Positions 53,070-64,000 of a stretch of DNA of 64,000 bases are shown in pieces. The translations under genes and the position numbers were made by a program. Position 1 is the stretch's first letter. Each line of letters begins with the position of its first letter. A model generated the notes under the pieces. It worked only from the letters and a program-made list of their open reading frames with translations, had not been told where the DNA came from and searched no databases. This DNA is from Anaerolineales bacterium (GTDB lineage Bacteria > Chloroflexota > Anaerolineae > Anaerolineales > Villigracilaceae), in contig JACMLM010000034.1 of assembly GCA_014379595.1 (NCBI GenBank), forward strand, positions 62,001-126,000, read 5' to 3'.

Positions 53070-53735
53070 ATGTTAAAACCCATTCGTTGGAACACTTTTA
53101 TTCGTGACTTTTTTGTCATTCAAATTGGTTTTGCTTTGTATGGCTTATCGATCGCGCTTACTATCCAAGCTGATCTCGGGACAGGCACATGGTCTGTGTT
53201 TGAAGTGGCACTTGCAAATCTTACAGGTTTAACCATCGGAACGATCACTATTCTTGTTGCTTTCGGAGTATTGGTTCTGGTATTACTATTCAAAGAGAAA
53301 GTAGGATGGGGAACTCTGGGAAATATCCTCAGTATTGGCTTATGGTTAGATGTGTTTATGAAGATTATCCCATTTGAAGAATCAAATTTACCTTTGCAGG
53401 TAGTGATGTTGTTTGCAGGGATTCTGCTTATGGGAATTGCTAGTGCCGTTTATATTGGCGTAGATGCAGGTGCGGGCCCGCGAGATAGTTTGATGTTGGC
53501 GATTCATCGTACTACCAAATTAAGTTTACGAATGGCTCGTGCTTCCGTTGAAATTATAGTTTTCATCATCGGCTGGTTGCTTGGCGGACCTGCTGGAATT
53601 GGTACATTGATCTTCGCTATTTTGATTGGTCCATCTGTACAATGGGCATTTAAGATATTTAATGTGCGGCCGCATCAGGAAGAAAAAGTAATACTTACTT
53701 CACCAGTATCGATTGAAGGAGATGCAAATGACTGA
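53070..53735 (+). CDS. YczE/YyaS/YitT-family membrane protein
   Basis: This 221-residue protein has five TM segments and the family sequence RDFFVIQIGFALYGLSIALTIQADLGTGTWSVFEVALANLTGLTIGTI (in several runs), AVYIGVDAGAGPRDSLMLAIHRTTKLSLRMARASVE. Family members (Bacillus YczE) influence secondary-metabolite and peptide export, but the activity is unknown. The ATG at 53070 follows AAGGAG. It overlaps the protease gene by 8 bp, so the two are probably co-translated. Confidence 0.87.
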   Translation: MLKPIRWNTFIRDFFVIQIGFALYGLSIALTIQADLGTGTWSVFEVALANLTGLTIGTITILVAFGVLVLVLLFKEKVGWGTLGNILSIGLWLDVFMKIIPFEESNLPLQVVMLFAGILLMGIASAVYIGVDAGAGPRDSLMLAIHRTTKLSLRMARASVEIIVFIIGWLLGGPAGIGTLIFAILIGPSVQWAFKIFNVRPHQEEKVILTSPVSIEGDAND

Positions 53736-56058
53736 AGCTACTTCTGATACACCGATCTCTGAACCACAAAATCGTTCAACAAACGCGCTCGTGCTCTTTT
53801 TGCTTTTTGTGCTGCCCATGCCGTTTTGTTTGTTCATCTATCATTTCATTGTGTGGTCAACTGAACAAACGGCGATCACTTCTTTGAGCTTAAAGTCTGT
53901 TGCATGGGCTGGACCAATCGGTTTGCTTGTTCAAGCCATTGTAATGACAGGTATTACGGCAGCATTATGGCGTTTTACCAAAGATGACCGCTTCAAGCCA
54001 GTATATGCAGGCTTATTCGGTGCGGCTGTGATGGCCTTCCCTGCGTTGCTTTTGCGTGCGCTTGGCCCAAATAATGATCAGCTTGGTTCCATTGCACAAT
54101 TCATTCTTTGTTTAATCGGCGCAGGAGTCGTGATCTGGCTTCGTAAAAATAAAATTGAATGGGATCGCGTTTCCTTACCATTTGGTCTTGTCATTGCGGC
54201 TATTGGCTTTGCACCGTTTGCGATCTATGGTTCGTTTGGTTCATTTGGTGATGCGTTCTTAAGTCTGTTGGCGAGCATGTCATTTGGTTTGCTTGCCGCC
54301 ACATTGATTGGATCTACAACAGGTAATTTGTTTTTAGATGGTGTTGGCATCGGCGGAGTGCTTGCATTGCTTGGCTCTGCCATAGGGTACGATGGCTCAC
54401 AATTACTTCTGCTTGCCATTCTTCCATCATTTGCGTTTGCGATTTCTGCCGTCATGCCATCCAAACTTGCAGCAGGCGCGGCCACGTCATTACTTGCATT
54501 TGCAGGCTTTGCACTTTTTGACCCAACTGAGTTGACGATTGTTTTGGGCGATATTCTTGGTGTGGCTACGAAAGCAAGCGGCATCGTAATTCTTATCGGG
54601 CTGGGAACAAGTATCATTGCGCTGGTCATGCGTTTCGCAACAGCATCAGGCTACAGTCAAAGTGCGAAGCGGGCGGTTGGCTGGGCAGGAGTTGGAGTCA
54701 CATGGCTGGTTGTCATCACATTATTTTTTATGTTTGGCAATCCAGGAAATTATAGCGACCGCCTCTTTGTCATTCTGAAGGATCAAGCGGATATTTCTGA
54801 TGTTGCGAGTATCGAAGACCGCGATGAAAGATTAACTGCAGCTTACGAACAATTAACCGAACATGCTAATGAAACGCAGGCTGATCTACGGAATTTCTTT
54901 GATAAAGTTGGTGTTGAATACACTCCATATTATTTGGAAAATGCGATTGAAGTTCGCGGTGGAACTTTGGTGCGATTCTATTTGATGACCCGCTCCGAAG
55001 TAGACCGAGTCATTCCAAGCCCGCGCCTGCGTGCTGTTCCTGCTGATGAACCTTCGCTGGGATATATTACCGAAGCAAGTGATGAAGTGCAATGGAATAT
55101 CTCAATGATCGGCGCAGATAAAGTATGGAATGAATTTAATGTGCAAGGTGAAGGCATTGTGGTGGGGCAATCTGATTCTGGTGTGGATGGGAATCATCCT
55201 GCTATCCATGATCGATATCGCGGCGTGACTCAAGGTGATGATTACAACTGGTTCGATCCATGGGATGGAACGACATCACCCAATGATGAAGGCGGACATG
55301 GCACACATACAACGGGAACGATTCTCGGTGCAGATGGGATCGGTGTAGCGCCAAAAGCGCAATGGATTGGTTGTGTGAATCTTGATAGAAATCTTGCCAA
55401 CCCTGCATTGTATTTGGATTGTATGCAATTCATGCTTGCGCCGTTTCCGCATGGTGGTGATCCATTAAAAGATGGTGACCCGACCAAAGCTGCGCATGTG
55501 ATGAACAATTCATGGGGCTGCCCCTCGATTGAAGGTTGTGACCCGAATGCATTGTTGTCTGCGGTGGATAATTTAAGATATGCAGGTATCTTTGTGGTCG
55601 TATCCACTGGCAATGACGGACCGAGTTGTGAGACCGTTGAATCGCCATTGTCTTTATATGATTCTGTTTTTTCGGTTGGCGCCGTTGACCAATTTGGTGA
55701 TATGGCTCAATTCAGCAGCCGCGGCCCCGTTATCGCAGATGGTTCTGGAAGAAACAAACCCGACATCGTTGCACCTGGCGTGGATATTCTTTCATCATTA
55801 CCAGGCGGTACATATGGCGCCAACAGCGGAACATCCATGGCTGGGCCTCATGTTGTAGGAGTGGTGGCATTGATCTGGTCTGCTCAACCCGATTTGATCG
55901 GTGATATTGATGCAACTGAACAACTCATCATTGATACAGCACAGCCTTATACAGGTGACACATCACTCGGTTGCTTCACTGGCGACACTCCGAGCAATGC
56001 GTATGGTTATGGTGTTGTGGATGTATATGAAGCCGTGAAGAAAGCGTTAGGGAAATAA
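53728..56058 (+). CDS. Subtilisin-like (S8) protease fused to an N-terminal polytopic membrane domain
   Basis: This 776-residue protein has about ten TM segments in residues 25-345 and an S8 peptidase domain from about 470. Catalytic residues are Asp483 (GQSDSGVDGNHP), His524 (GGHGTHTTG) and Ser703 (GTSMAGPHVVG), with oxyanion Asn in VMNNSWG. Between them is a stretch (about 350-460) with inhibitor-I9-like features (FYLMTRSEVDRVIPSP). S8 proteases normally have a signal peptide and are secreted; a multi-TM anchor is unusual. ATG 53728 follows GAAGGAG. It probably faces outwards. Substrate unknown. Confidence 0.88.
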   Translation: MTEATSDTPISEPQNRSTNALVLFLLFVLPMPFCLFIYHFIVWSTEQTAITSLSLKSVAWAGPIGLLVQAIVMTGITAALWRFTKDDRFKPVYAGLFGAAVMAFPALLLRALGPNNDQLGSIAQFILCLIGAGVVIWLRKNKIEWDRVSLPFGLVIAAIGFAPFAIYGSFGSFGDAFLSLLASMSFGLLAATLIGSTTGNLFLDGVGIGGVLALLGSAIGYDGSQLLLLAILPSFAFAISAVMPSKLAAGAATSLLAFAGFALFDPTELTIVLGDILGVATKASGIVILIGLGTSIIALVMRFATASGYSQSAKRAVGWAGVGVTWLVVITLFFMFGNPGNYSDRLFVILKDQADISDVASIEDRDERLTAAYEQLTEHANETQADLRNFFDKVGVEYTPYYLENAIEVRGGTLVRFYLMTRSEVDRVIPSPRLRAVPADEPSLGYITEASDEVQWNISMIGADKVWNEFNVQGEGIVVGQSDSGVDGNHPAIHDRYRGVTQGDDYNWFDPWDGTTSPNDEGGHGTHTTGTILGADGIGVAPKAQWIGCVNLDRNLANPALYLDCMQFMLAPFPHGGDPLKDGDPTKAAHVMNNSWGCPSIEGCDPNALLSAVDNLRYAGIFVVVSTGNDGPSCETVESPLSLYDSVFSVGAVDQFGDMAQFSSRGPVIADGSGRNKPDIVAPGVDILSSLPGGTYGANSGTSMAGPHVVGVVALIWSAQPDLIGDIDATEQLIIDTAQPYTGDTSLGCFTGDTPSNAYGYGVVDVYEAVKKALGK

Positions 56059-57724: not shown

Positions 57725-60700
57725 TTAAATCTGCCCGCCCACGCCTTTAAACTTCTCAACAAAAGCGGCGATCTTTTGAAAAACGGTTTGTTTTTTGCTT
57801 AAGTATTGCGGATTAAGTGGACTCATTTTGGGCAGAATCGCATTGAGTTCTGTGCCGTTTTCACTAGCATATTCACGCTTTAATGATGCAATGATATAAC
57901 GCTTAGCTGCTTCTGCATTTAGGTTTTCATCATTAATTAATTCGTTTGCTTCACGTTGTTGCTCCGCTTGAGCAAAGGTAAAGAAAGCATCAATAATACT
58001 GGCTTTGTCAAGAATGTTGTCCAAGTTGGTTAGGTTAATAAAATCAACCATCAAACTCTCTTTGGCACGGTTACCAAGGCTGGCGCGAATTAAACGGCGT
58101 ACTTCTTCAACCAATGTCACTTTGTCTTTAAGCTTTTTATTGTGTTCGAATATCAATTCCAGAATGTAATCCAGATTAATCTCTTGTGATTTGAGCAGAT
58201 CCACCTCAAAAACCACATCATCCCAATCAATGGTGGCGATGTCTGTTTCTGCGCCCGCTTTTTCTCGGCGAAGCCAATCGAGAATATCGTTATAGGTTGA
58301 ACGGTAATCTTGAATAATGCGCTCGGCTGGCACCTTAATCGTTTGCATAGCCGCTAAGTCGTCATCGTTTAAATAGTGCTTAGCTTTAAACGCCTCTACA
58401 GCTATAGGATCGGTCATATCTAAGCCTTGTAAGGCTTTTAACCCAGCAAATTCGTCGTAGTTTTGCAAAACATTCTCAACACGCAAATATTCGCCAAATA
58501 ATTTAGCGAACTCTTTTTTATCTTGTTCTCTAACAATTTCATCAGGGTTGGGAAAGCGTTGTTGTAACTCTGCCACCACAACCAAATAACCACGCCGTGC
58601 TTCACCCGTCGCTACATCGGTAAAGCCTTCCATGTATTCTTTGTAGCTTTTTTCCAGCACCACGTTTTTGGTGTTCTTGTCACCAAATAAAGTAATGGCA
58701 TCAATTGTCGCTTGTTCTAAATCGCGGAAGGTGACTATATTGCCAAACGTTTTTGTCGCATCATAAATGCGGTTTGTGCGTGAATAGGCTTGGATCAAGC
58801 CGTGGTAGCGCAGGTTTTTATCCACGAACAAGGTGTTTAAAGTGGGTGCATCAAAGCCTGTTAAAAACATACCCACTACAATCAGCAAATCAACTTCTTG
58901 ATTGATGACTCGCTTGGCAAAGTCGCGGTAATAGTTTTGAAATTCATTGCTATCAACGCCATAATTGGTTTTAAACATCGCGTTATAGTCATCAATTGCC
59001 GCACTTAAAAATTCTTTCGCACTGCTATTCATTGCCGTGAGTTCAAAACTTTCATCAGGAATTTCCCCTGCCGCATCTTGTTCTTCATTGGCCGCAAAAG
59101 AGAAGATGGTGGCAATCTTAAGCGGCTTGTTACTGTCTTTCTGCAAATGCTTAAACGATTCATAGTACAGTTTGGCTGCATCCACACTGCTCACAGCAAA
59201 CATGGCATTAAAGCCTTTGCCACCCGCCTGTAAACGATGGGTTTTTTGTTTGAAGTTATTCAAGATGTACTGCGAAATTTCTCGAATGCGGTCGGGATGC
59301 AATAGCGCTTGTTTGTTTTCTGCCGCCGTGAGTTTTTTCTCGTCTAGTTCCGTTTCAATCGTCTTAAATTGCGGGCGCACATCGTTGTAGTCCACTTTGA
59401 ATTTCAACACTTTTTCATCGCGAATGGCGTCGGTAATCACATAAGAATGCAATTCACGCCCAAACACGCTGGCAGTGGTATCTGCGCCCAAGGCATTTTG
59501 TGGAAAAATTGGAGTACCCGTAAAGCCAAACTGGTAGAATTTTTTGAATTTTTTCTTTAGGTTTTGTTGTGCCTCACCAAATTGGGAACGGTGCGCCTCA
59601 TCAAAAATAAATACCACTTGCTTGTTGTAGATGGGCAAGTCGCCTTCACTTTTCATTAAGTTATTCAATTTTTGAATTGTGGTAACAATGATTTTATTGT
59701 CATCTTTATCAAGGTTGCGCTTTAACCCTGCGGTGCTGTCTGAACCATTGACGCTATCGGGCGAAAAGCGTTGATATTCTTTCATGGTTTGATAGTCGAG
59801 GTCTTTACGGTCAACCACAAAAAAGACTTTATCAATAAATTCTAGCTCGGTCGCCAGGCGTGCCGCTTTAAAGCTGGTTAAGGTTTTGCCTGAGCCTGTG
59901 GTATGCCAAATATAGCCGCCGCCTTCGGTGGTGTTCCATTTTTTTGCTTGATAAGCGCTGTTTATTTTCCATAAAATGCGCTCGGTCGCGGCAATTTGGT
60001 AGGGGCGCATGACTAATAAGGTGTCATTAACGTCAAACACTGAATAGTTGAACAGCACATTCAACAAGGTGTTTTTCTGAAAAAACGTGGCAGTAAAATC
60101 TTTTAAGTCTTTTATTAAGCTGTTATCTGACTTTGCCCAATTCATGGTGAAATCAAAACTGTTTTTGTCACGCTTGGTGGTATTGGCAAAGTAACGGCTA
60201 TCTGTTCCGTTTGAAATCACGAAAAGCTGCAAATATTTAAACAGTGAGTTGTCTGTATTAAAACTTTCTTTGCTGTAGCGGTGCACCTGGTTAAAGGCTT
60301 CGCGAATGGCCACCCCCCGTTTTTTGAGCTCGATTTGTACCAATGGCAAACCATTCACCAAAATGGTGATATCGTAGCGATTGGCCTGCGTACCTTTTTG
60401 TTCAAACTGTTTAATTACCTGAACTTTATTGCGAGCAATTTTTTGCTTATCCAATAGATAGATGTTTTGGATGTGCCCATCATCAAAGACAAAATCGTGG
60501 ATATAGTCGTCATGAATTTTGCGCGTTTTATCGATACTGTTATCGCTGGGCTTATCTAAATAAGATTCAACAAAACGTTGCCATTCGCCATCCAAAAACT
60601 GCACATGATTTAGCGCTTGCAACTGCACCCGCACGTTTGCCAGCATTTTGTCGAGGGTGTTTAAATCGGGCAGGTATTCATAGCCTTGGTTTTGTAGATC

Positions 60701-60823
60701 GGTGATGAACTCAGCCTCTAAAGCGTATTCGCTTTGATAGGCTTCATTGATCTGCCAACTCTTGGTGTATTTATCCAGCACGATAAAGTTATTCGATTCT
60801 GCAATGGGTTTGTATTCAATCAT
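57725..60823 (-). CDS. hsdR: Type I restriction endonuclease subunit HsdR
   Basis: This 1032-residue motor/nuclease subunit has an N-terminal nuclease site (Asp151 in YDITILVNG, Glu165 and Lys167 in QIELKKRG), Walker A HTTGSGKT (Lys313), DEAH box (408-411, [12 protein letters not shown]), FGFTGTPIF, and the helicase motif QAYSRTNR. The C-terminal ~250 residues are the helical domain that binds the HsdM/HsdS core. The length matches type IC enzymes (EcoR124I, EcoprrI). It is the last gene of the locus, 28 nt after prrC, as prrD/hsdR is in the E. coli prr locus. Confidence 0.95.
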
Positions 60824-60851: not shown

Positions 60852-62018
60852 TTAGCGAACGCTCGACTTGAAACGATACGTTTCATTAATTTGTCTCACC
60901 AGGTAGCTCAAAACACGCTTATCCTCTTCTGTAAGCTCAGTCACTTCTTCACCAGCCTGTTTAGAGTGACTAGAGATATTAATTATTCTTGTCTCATAAG
61001 GATTAGGCTTTCCATCACCTGTTGTCGGTAATAGGTTTCCCCAATTTTCATAACCGAGAAATGTGGAGGTTTTTTCTAAAATGTTTCTGAGAAAATTAAA
61101 GTGGTACTTATGCAACTGACCTGTCTCAATCGCTTTTTCAAGTTCTGCTTTGAGATAAAGATGATACGAAAACGGTGAATCATTCTTTGGTTGGGGGACT
61201 AAATCATATTCCCCATTATCATGTTTATTCAGAAGATATTTTTTAAATTTAACGTCCTTGAACTCATTGTGCAGCACATTATAAAAAAGCGGGTTATGTG
61301 TGGTGATAATAAATTTAAGTTCTGAACGACTGGATTTAATCAGTTGCGCCAAGTCCACCGCTAATTCAATCAAATGATTTTCATCTAAGGAGCTAACAGG
61401 GTCGTCAATAAATACATATTCCAACTGATTAAACTGATCTGTTTCCCGCTCACTGGGTTCGGCGACATTCAACACAGCAATCACTTGCACAAGCAGACTA
61501 TAAAATACACTCCAAATAAAGTTGCTCTCTTCACCCTTTGAAATTTTGATATTTTCGGTTTGTTCTTCATTGCCCCGTTCAAAGGAGAATGTGACTTCAG
61601 AGAAATCTGGACTAAAACGCGGCGTTAACTTTTCATCAGTATAGCGCTGAAAATGAGCAATAATGTTTTGATCTTGCCCCTGGTCTTGGAGCACCCATTC
61701 TGTAAAAGAGTTAGACTGGATTTTTAATTTCGGCTCGGTATCACGCTCTAAATCATTATCCCAATAGAACAAATCTTCCGTAAACGCATTGTAATAGAGG
61801 ATTTTTGTGCGAGCTAACGCTGTTTCTTCTGCTTCTTCATCACTATCGGCTCTCGGTGCGATTAACTGTTTAAATTCCCGTGACAAGCGAGTTTTACCCG
61901 TGCCATTAAACGCAAAGATAAGCTGTACTTTTACACTGGAAATTGTTGCAACTGCTGACCGAGTTCTATGTTCAGCAACTTTTAGTTGCTGTGCAATGTC
62001 CGTTAACGACTGCCCCAT
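60852..62018 (-). CDS. prrC: Latent anticodon nuclease PrrC
   Basis: This 388-residue toxin has an ABC-type ATPase half: Walker A AFNGTGKT (36-43), the PrrC-specific [18 protein letters not shown] (73-90), signature [11 protein letters not shown] (160-170), Walker [13 protein letters not shown] (201-212) and His241 (ITTHNP). The C-terminal anticodon-nuclease half has the catalytic triad of PrrC: Arg311 and Glu315 in FLRNILEKT and His351 in ISSHSK (E. coli Arg320, Glu324, His356). E. coli PrrC cuts tRNA-Lys 5' of the wobble base when phage T4 Stp disturbs the HsdRMS complex. ATG 62018 lies 1 nt after the hsdS stop with GAGG upstream. Confidence 0.95.
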
Positions 62019-62019
62019 G

Positions 62020-62676
62020 CTATGCCTCATCGTCTACTTTTGGAAAGGTTAACAACTTCTCGCGATAATACTCATATTGTTTTTGCCTTGCTGTGAGTTC
62101 GGCTGTGAGTTCGGCTGTAAGCGCAGTGTATGTGTCCAAAATGCGGACAATTTTAGATTGGATATCACTTGGAGGGACGGGGATTTGGAGTTTTTTAAGC
62201 TCACTCATAGGCAAGCTGACTACAGGTGAACCAACAATTTTTTTGCTGTATTCTTTTACAATATATTGTGTGTTAAGTAGATAAGAAAGGTATCTTGAAT
62301 TAATGACTTTCTGGTCTGGCTTTATTACATAAACCCCTTCTTTCACATTCCAGTTTTCAGGATTGATTTCAATAACCGCTGTTCGACCTACAGTTCCTGT
62401 TCCAGAAAACAAAATATCTCCAACCTCTAAGTTGGAACGGTTGTTTATGAGTTTTAAAGCACTGTTATTCACCCTATCAGTTTTATCAAGAAATACTATT
62501 TTTCCGTTCTGAATTTCACGAACTGTCACATAAAAATTATTGGCATCCGCTGTATTTAGTTGGAAATTTTTACGCGGATTTAAACCTGTTTTTAAAGACT
62601 TTATTACTTCCCCCAAAGCCTTCCACTCCACCTCAACGCCTTCAAGCAGTTTCTCCATAAAGCTCAACTTACTCAT
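62020..62676 (-). CDS. hsdS: Half-length type I specificity subunit HsdS (single TRD, type IC)
   Basis: This 218-residue protein has one target-recognition domain (about 8-160, ending in [24 protein letters not shown]) and one conserved coiled-coil region ([32 protein letters not shown]). Type IC HsdS proteins normally are about 400 residues with two TRDs. The TAEL repeats are the ones that set the spacer length in EcoR124I/EcoR124II. No second TRD is encoded before prrC. Half-subunits can dimerise and then read a symmetric bipartite site. Start overlaps hsdM by 4 bp. Confidence 0.9.
62095..62118 (-). repeat. Tandem 12-bp repeats encoding TAEL in hsdS
   Basis: ACAGCCGAACTC occurs twice head to tail (62118-62107 and 62106-62095), flanked by degenerate TALT and TARQ codons. 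Changes in this copy number alter spacer length in the recognition sequence of type IC enzymes. Confidence 0.85.
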
Positions 62677-64000
62677 GCTTCAATCTCCGCCACAATCGCA
62701 TCAATCTCGGCGCGTAGCTGGTTGATTTTCGCGACCGTGGTTTTCAGCTCGGCATTCAGCTTGGTAATATCAATCACTTCGCGGGTGTCTTCTGCTTCCA
62801 TATAGGAGCTTGCCGATAGGCTGTAATCGTTGGCGGCTATCACATCGTATTCCACCGATTTTGCAAAGTATGCAACATCATCTTTACTATCGAAAGCTTG
62901 CATAATTTGCTTGATGTTTTCATCGGTTAATACGTTGGTATTGGATTGTGGCTTAAATAGCTTACTCGCATCAATAAACTGGATTGTGGTGTCGGTTTTG
63001 TGTTTAGAAAGCACCAGGATATTGACGGAGATTGAGGTGCCAAAAAACAAGTTGGGCGCGAGCGAGATTACGGTTTCGACATAGTTGTTATCTACCAAAT
63101 ATTGGCGGATTTTCTGCTCCGCGCCGCCCCGGTAAAAAATACCGGGGAAGCAGACAATCGCGGCGCGGCCCTTGCTGGATAAATAACTTAATGCATGCAG
63201 CACAAAGGCAAAGTCGGCTTTGGATTTGGGCGCTAACACGCCTGCGGGGGCAAAGCGTTCATCATTAATCAGGGTTGGGTCGTCGCTGCCAATCCAGGTC
63301 ACCGAATAGGGCGGGTTAGAGACAATGGCATCAAAGGGTTTTTCATCGCCAAAATGCGGATCTAACAGAGTGTTGCCAAGCGCAATATTGAACTTGTCGT
63401 AGTTAATGTTGTGCAAAAACATATTCATACGCGCAAGGTTATAGGTGGTGTGGTTGATCTCTTGACCAAAAAAGCCATCTTCGATTATATGGGCATCAAA
63501 GTGTTTTTTTGCTTGTAATAATAAGGAGCCTGAGCCTGCTGCTGGGTCGTAAATTTTATTGACGGTTGTTTGCTTGTGCATGGCCAGCTGTGCAATGAGC
63601 TTGGATACGTGTTGCGGGGTGAAAAATTCGCCACCTGATTTACCTGCGTTGGCTGCATAGTTAGAAATCAAAAACTCGTAGGCATCACCAAACAGGTCGA
63701 TTTGGTTTTCTTGGAACTCGCCAAAGCGAAGCCCCGCCACCCCTTTCAGCACGGCGGCTAAACGGGTGTTTTTGTCGGTAACGGTGTTGCCTAGGCGGTT
63801 GCTGGTGGTATCAAAATCGGCAAACAACCCCTTGATATCTTGTTCAGATGGGAAGCCATTGGCCGAGCTTTCAATGGCGGAAAATATAGCAGCTAAGTCG
63901 GTGTTCAGATTGGCGTTGGTATTGGCGTTGGCGGCGATGTTGGCAAATAGCTGGCTGGGGTAGATGAAATACCCTTTGGTTTTAATGGCATCTTCTTTGA
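62673..64000 (-). CDS. hsdM: Type I restriction-modification DNA methyltransferase HsdM (N-terminus outside window)
   Basis: This subunit transfers methyl to adenine N6 in the HsdM2HsdS core. The frame is open to base 64000 with no start needed inside, so the protein continues beyond the right edge (442 codons visible). It shows [18 protein letters not shown] motif [34 protein letters not shown], catalytic NPPYS ([11 protein letters not shown]) and [19 protein letters not shown]. Part of the N-terminal helical region precedes it. It is upstream of hsdS-prrC-hsdR and overlaps hsdS by 4 bp. Confidence 0.95.

Follow-up and report, generated by a model that had tools for sequence, protein, structure and literature searches.

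A one-TRD HsdS in an EcoprrI-like type IC operon that carries prrC

Among the closest described systems, EcoprrI/PrrC recognizes an asymmetric site, CCAN7RTGC (PMC3874165). Palindromic sites read by HsdS proteins with one TRD have been published for both natural and truncated enzymes. NgoAV of Neisseria gonorrhoeae, a type IC enzyme, has an HsdS of 208 aa and the site GCAN8TGC (PMC3874165, PMC9577141), and Helicobacter pylori JHP0785, attributed to recombination between repeats (PMC3077401), has the palindromic motif RTAYN5RTAY as determined by SMRT (PMC3936762). The truncated EcoR124I-delta50/EcoR124INT reads GAAN7TTC and EcoDXXI-deltaC reads TCAN8TGA, and these half-HsdS keep the parental distance between the methylated adenines, which is set by the number of TAEL repeats (PMC3874165, PMC3320862). 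M-half-S and an M-half-S fusion of CC398 have been engineered (PMC6158711), and 'Type IMS' has been put forward as a name for such fusions (PMC3510504). Our search found no report of PrrC combined with a half-HsdS, which is weak evidence of absence given that subscription papers lay outside it. For HsdM-HsdS fusions and one-TRD HsdS, the titles and abstract openings among the matches listed named no combination with PrrC.

The operon and its half-length HsdS

In the stretch of DNA analyzed here (hereafter, the window; 64,000 nucleotides), hsdM, hsdS, prrC and hsdR follow one another on the minus strand from the right end inward, i.e., in the EcoprrI order, and all four are open. The features are as follows.

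62673–64000, minus strand: hsdM, the C-terminal 441 codons inside the window (whole gene 513 aa, L004:8674-10215); N6_Mtase E 6.6e-118, TIGR00497, DPAAGSG and NPPY motifs
62673–62676, minus strand: overlap of the hsdM stop and the hsdS start, ATGA, read from the sequence; a 4-nt overlap is common to 12/12 of L027-L038
62020–62676, minus strand: hsdS with one TRD, 218 aa, starting inside the ATGA overlap and ending in TAG; one Methylase_S stretch; PADLOC type I specificity model PDLC03077, positions 1-214/417
62170–62676, minus strand: N-terminal conserved segment and single TRD (residues 1-169), from the predicted structure; aligns with TRD1 of L024 and L025 and TRD2 of L026
62050–62169, minus strand: single long helix (residues 170-209) in the predicted structure, a putative dimerization helix with two TAEL repeats at spacing 15
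62023–62088, minus strand: D2-like helix end and tail (residues 197-218, from Arg197) by D1/D2 profile scores, the downstream side of the putative deletion join
62019–62019, minus strand: 1 nt separating the hsdS stop from the prrC ATG (62018), read from the sequence; same gap in 57/79 loci measured
60852–62018, minus strand: prrC, 388 aa (ORF opens at 62030); PADLOC PrrC 494 bits, Walker A, Arg311-Glu315-His351 triad
57725–60823, minus strand: hsdR, EcoR124 type, 1032 aa; HSDR_N, EcoR124_C and T1R_D3-like domains, D..ExK, Walker A and DEAH

In the gap measurement, 7 of the 79 loci gave no value, at least L085 owing to the search pattern. The start of prrC at 62030 given by the mechanical ORF list was rejected, because the 62018 ATG is where the other 7 of 8 aligned PrrC begin. 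Elsewhere in the window (53713–56058), a 781-aa ORF read by eye has a long membrane-type N-terminal part and an apparent subtilisin-type serine protease domain.

HsdM and HsdR are of the EcoR124 type (EcoR124_C E 5.1e-70; NCBIfam TIGR00497 538.9 bits, cut-off 242.75), and the HsdM motifs DPAAGSG and NPPY as well as the D..ExK, Walker A and DEAH motifs of HsdR are all present. IC-linked PrrC are anticodon nucleases that cut tRNA-Lys and are kept silent by the restriction-modification complex. The window PrrC has a Walker A motif and an Arg-Glu-His triad that is invariant in all eight aligned PrrC; its Arg311, Glu315 and His351 align with positions 320/324/356 of a 396-aa PrrC from an E. coli plasmid (L032), which are the published triad positions of E. 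coli PrrC (PMC2610378, PMC3014915). No solved relative of this PrrC was detected at E up to 1 in a comparison with PDB sequences. With the motifs of hsdM, prrC and hsdR intact, the original prediction of a prr-type operon stands. The system is rare in its phylum (HsdM matches with E no higher than 1e-150 in 8 of 400 genomes, counting that of the window), and the nearest tree relatives of this HsdM are of mixed taxonomy (Bacteroidota and Pseudomonadota), which points to horizontal acquisition.

HsdS was confirmed to be a one-TRD protein, with prrC starting 1 nt after its stop as initially noted. Pfam scans detected one Methylase_S stretch (residues 15-194) compared with two each in the full-length relatives L025 and L034 (2 relatives scanned). 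The type IC arrangement TRD1-D1-TRD2-D2 is thus reduced to one TRD and one helix, and the TAEL repeats typical of the type IC D1 helix are retained. As expected of a one-TRD homodimeric HsdS, the protein combines a single TRD with a predicted dimerization helix, and no partner HsdS was found in the assembly, which is 95% complete. The AlphaFold monomer model (mean pLDDT 79.3, pTM 0.74) folds as a TRD, with low confidence in the loop at residues 61-79, and has a single uninterrupted helix of 40 residues (170-209) that spans the putative join. The model superposes on individual halves of type I S subunits, namely those of the solved PacII 7vru (Z 18.5, rmsd 2.8, 188 aligned) and EcoR124I 7bst (Z 11.7, rmsd 3.6, 196 aligned), and of the EcoKI model 2y7c (Z 15.2, rmsd 4.6, 204 aligned).

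The closest sequences are halves of plasmid-encoded HsdS, aligned over 210-217 residues including the helix: the N-terminal half of a Moellerella HsdS (77% amino-acid identity), the N-terminal half of the E. coli pLR-13 HsdS (74%) and the C-terminal half of the E. coli pCE33-2 HsdS (72%). Such identity to three HsdS halves indicates that the ORF is not a chance one. Judged by these alignments, full-length enterobacterial HsdS carry relatives of the TRD module in the TRD1 position as well as in the TRD2 position. The dN against the three halves was 0.16-0.22 and dS was returned as -1, read as saturated; the purifying selection on the TRD may predate the putative deletion. A first search for relatives with HsdS alone (61 genomes) gave, besides its own gene, a best match of ≤40% identity, and relatives of the TRD (~70% DNA identity, query 62180-62640) were detected in 22 of 5426 E. 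coli genomes, E2348/69 among them. The literature searched yielded no methylation motif for an enzyme with the same TRD, and we claim no half-site; the 'GNN..NNC' motif originally suggested has no basis, as no half-site can be assigned to this TRD. The label 'EcoprrI subunit S' on pLR-13 was rejected as support for a CCA half-site, being annotation only.

A chimeric D1/D2 helix and the probable origin of the half-length HsdS

Of 71 full-length HsdS from prr-linked or closely related systems, 58 had both helix anchors and were used to profile the D1 and D2 helices, the other 13 being left out; scores are log2(D1/D2), and the ranges given for D1 and D2 copies are in-sample, with the window HsdS outside the profiles. 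The 28 residues before Arg197 scored +99.1 for D1 (58 D1 copies, 33.4 to 124.1; D2 copies, -100.0 to -58.5). From Arg197 on, the 16 following residues scored -12.2 (D1 copies, 3.3 to 22.0; D2 copies, -26.3 to 4.8) and the tail -4.3 (D1, -0.4 to 14.3; D2, -11.3 to -0.4). By these scores the helix is a chimera, derived from the central (D1) repeat before Arg197 and from the C-terminal (D2) repeat thereafter. The initial description of one TRD plus the central conserved helix was therefore right about the TRD, while the helix passes from D1 to D2 and is not simply the central one; similarly, the C-terminus resembles the end copy and not the middle and end copies equally. For comparison, L106 and L112, where HsdS is split, have first halves that show no D2-like turn in this segment (+1.4 and +3.3). 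Chimeras were also scored in three other prrC loci (L050, L059 and L069) and more weakly in L130, and the fusion half-HsdS of L085, L099 and L110 gave no clear chimera score.

Given the chimeric helix and the usual hsdM/hsdS and hsdS/prrC junctions, the most economical history, and our preferred reading, is an in-frame deletion inside hsdS that joined D1 to D2, consistent with the clean deletion, not a frameshift, that had been proposed. For the recombination between HsdS repeats suggested along with it, the DNA repeats are weak. In 42 full-length prr-linked or closely related hsdS, the longest stretch identical between D1 and D2 was 6-22 nt (median 8; per-locus maxima of 20 shuffles, 7-11 nt), with a median identity of 69% over 45 nt, and this comparison gave no DNA-level proof of repeat recombination. 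As the repeats in these relatives are short and divergent, ordinary homologous recombination between D1 and D2 is not favored, and microhomology slippage, or an unsampled parent with better repeats, appears as likely.

A deletion of this kind could also have killed sequence recognition, leaving an inactive remnant with hsdM, prrC and hsdR on their way out, and broken type I systems are indeed not rare (8 of 39 genomes with an IC-type HsdS match have one with an internal stop). We consider a remnant improbable here, given that all four genes are open with their catalytic motifs, that the junctions and one unbroken predicted helix are preserved, and that the same layout recurs in other genera. 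Collapse of a full-length hsdS at internal repeats during assembly might be suspected in a genome of 72 contigs. The words used in assembly are usually longer than the 6-22 nt shared by D1 and D2 in the 42 relatives, and L050 and L059, from two further assemblies, share the chimeric layout, which makes an artifact very unlikely.

One-TRD HsdS among prrC loci

To place the window in context, we compared a profile of single HsdS halves with the 4.2 kb upstream of 107 prrC homologues, i.e., 80 from GTDB (the best 80 of 494), 20 from viral contigs and 7 from plasmids, the window not counted. One HsdS ORF with two halves was found in 87 of them. A single separate half-HsdS was found in two (Peristeroidobacter L050 and Kouleothrix L059, the latter with a gap of 14 nt instead of 1 nt between hsdS and prrC), a half-HsdS fused to the C-terminus of HsdM in five (L069, L085, L099, L110 and L130), and two separate half-HsdS ORFs in two (L106 and L112). 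No HsdS half was seen in three loci, and six with HsdS cut by a contig end were left out. The distant PrrC relatives L132 and L133 (34% identity), with one half-domain hit each, were not counted as one-TRD.

Several other arrangements were observed at these loci. The two half ORFs of L106 (4298-5502) and L112 (4316-5505) are adjacent and upstream of prrC, and presumably form an obligate heterodimer. Genes of the RhuM family (L042, L101 and L102), Bro-N (L112) and Fic/DOC (L044, L074 and L098) lie between hsdM and hsdS, and an 860-aa AAA_13/SMC-like ATPase is encoded immediately upstream of prrC on a viral contig (L127:2753-5335).

The natural HsdM-half-HsdS fusions (704-723 aa), including one from the genome samples described below (L155), lie directly upstream of prrC, and each has N6_Mtase and a single Methylase_S stretch.

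L069:3370-5505, HsdM-half-HsdS fusion
L085:3373-5508, HsdM-half-HsdS fusion
L099:3364-5508, HsdM-half-HsdS fusion
L110:3394-5508, HsdM-half-HsdS fusion
L130:3329-5500, HsdM-half-HsdS fusion
L155:1749-3893, HsdM-half-HsdS fusion

Residues 459-638 of a solved Vibrio vulnificus MTase chain (7eew, 610 residues) align to the window HsdS, and the chain may be another natural fusion; nothing on this structure appeared among the literature matches listed.

We also sampled 398 and 395 genomes from two phyla, in which an HsdS match at E up to 1e-25 was found in 39, or 37 after leaving out the centers G459 and G460, chosen for their prrC. Of these 37, a single genome has an HsdM-half-HsdS fusion (L155), with prrC and hsdR downstream; it belongs to the 14 in which prrC adjoins the HsdS match. 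With so few cases (1/37 fusion, 14/37 with prrC), enrichment of one-TRD HsdS in prrC systems is not claimed. Another IC system (L157:2325-3462) has HsdS split into frames of 197 and 191 aa, reminiscent of NgoAV, and its genome (G566) has no prrC match at E up to 1e-20.

A quick HsdM tree of 78 rows was calculated with SH-aLRT as branch support and no bootstrap; of 75 inner branches, 31 are open, and the tree is unrooted. The eight one-TRD rows, including the window, require 7 label changes. Counted by type, the starred branches force at least 3 changes for the three separate halves and at least 4 for the five fusions (shuffled means, 3.0 and 4.9), in counts that do not tell gain from loss. This pattern points to several origins of the one-TRD state. 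Half-HsdS precursors have been postulated for the evolution of type I systems (PMC3510504, PMC3874165), so that the window HsdS could be an ancestral half never fused to a second TRD. On this tree, the window HsdM pairs with the full-length system of Pontibacter (L034; SH-aLRT 98), which makes TRD loss the simpler reading; together with the three changes needed for three separate half-HsdS rows and the D2-type tail, it renders an ancestral half highly improbable.

A half-HsdS could also pair in trans with another HsdS and read an asymmetric site, given that in H. pylori an orphan HsdS encoded at another chromosomal site can serve HsdM (PMC3936762), but a trans partner seems very unlikely for the window HsdS, since no second IC-type HsdS was found in the assembly (72 contigs; 95% complete, which leaves a little room for a missing partner) and the other HsdS-like matches are weak and lie in only two long frames of 409 and 428 aa (best E 9.6e-13 and 7.3e-10). 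Likewise, no second IC-type HsdS was detected in the six of seven one-TRD survey genomes searched (L050, L059, L069, L085, L099 and L110; the viral contig L130 was left out), where the next best match had E 2.8e-16 or weaker.

A proposed symmetric complex and comparison with known systems

We consider it likely that hsdS underwent an in-frame deletion and that the locus encodes a working type IC, EcoprrI-like system in which two copies of the half-HsdS replace one full-length HsdS, the site is palindromic and PrrC is silenced. On this model, the deletion would have taken out the last part of D1, TRD2 and the first part of D2. Two TRD-plus-helix copies would pair antiparallel through the helix to take the place of one full-length HsdS, two half-HsdS and two HsdM would form an M2S2 methyltransferase, and two HsdR would complete an R2M2S2 nuclease. 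PrrC would be held silent inside this symmetric complex. The original prediction likewise proposed an enzyme of symmetric specificity that also has to hold PrrC, by analogy with the engineered EcoR124I and EcoDXXI half-HsdS, an analogy that the accounts of those enzymes support (PMC3874165, PMC3320862).

We predict that the target is an interrupted palindrome in which ~7 bp separate the two methylated adenines, a spacing taken from the two TAEL repeats that the window helix shares with EcoR124I-delta50. The TAEL spacing of 15 in this helix is that of 41 of 68 full-length D1 helices, with a spacing of 19 in 64 of 64 D2 helices measured. The spacing is the weakest part of the model, since the CC398 half-HsdS departed from the TAEL rule with an unexpected shift in spacing (PMC6158711). 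A half-HsdS need not work: TRD1 of H. pylori JHP1422 alone did not methylate its palindrome (PMC3936762). A truncation was also attempted in S. xylosus (PMC10030836).

More tentatively, and somewhat short of an even chance in our judgment, reduction to one TRD may have occurred repeatedly and independently in prrC-bearing type IC systems, with the half-HsdS separate or fused to HsdM, and PrrC may be held by a two-fold symmetric (M-half-S)2 core. In that case, silencing of an anticodon nuclease would require neither a second TRD nor TRDs that are covalently joined, and symmetry of the target may be under selection in abortive-infection systems like these.

Taken as a whole, the sequence evidence makes a functional, symmetric version of an EcoprrI-like system the most likely identity of the locus. 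In a natural minimal symmetric complex of this kind, the surface that silences PrrC could be tested without an asymmetric HsdS. The half-HsdS and HsdM-half-HsdS designs, engineered to model the evolution of restriction enzymes, exist in genomes, and the D1/D2 chimera provides a sequence signature for finding further half-HsdS. The one-TRD principle itself is already known from the published natural palindromic systems NgoAV and JHP0785, which the original prediction did not mention; what may be new is the association with prrC and its repeated occurrence, natural HsdM fusions included.

The window shares with EcoprrI/PrrC the order hsdM-hsdS-prrC-hsdR, the PrrC triad and Walker A, and an EcoR124-type HsdR, as far as these are described (PMC3014915), but its HsdS has one TRD; the EcoprrI HsdS sequence itself was not part of the comparison. 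The natural one-TRD HsdS is shared with NgoAV, which differs in that its truncation is a phase-variable frameshift at a poly-G tract that leaves a remnant hsdS2, and whose genes are given, in the accounts available, as hsdM, hsdS1, hsdS2 and hsdR without prrC. JHP0785 is also a natural one-TRD HsdS; it arose among alleles of one species sharing TRD-flanking repeats, and no prrC is mentioned in the accounts consulted. In EcoR124I-delta50/EcoR124INT and EcoDXXI-deltaC, an N-terminal TRD with D1 dimerizes, much as proposed here, but these truncations were made in the laboratory or by transposon insertion, and, in the descriptions available, join the N-terminal TRD to the central conserved region, unlike the chimeric D1/D2 helix of the window. 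Finally, the CC398 and 'Type IMS' designs have the same architectures as the window HsdS (separate) and the six natural fusions (fused), which differ from those engineered forms in being genomic and located upstream of prrC.
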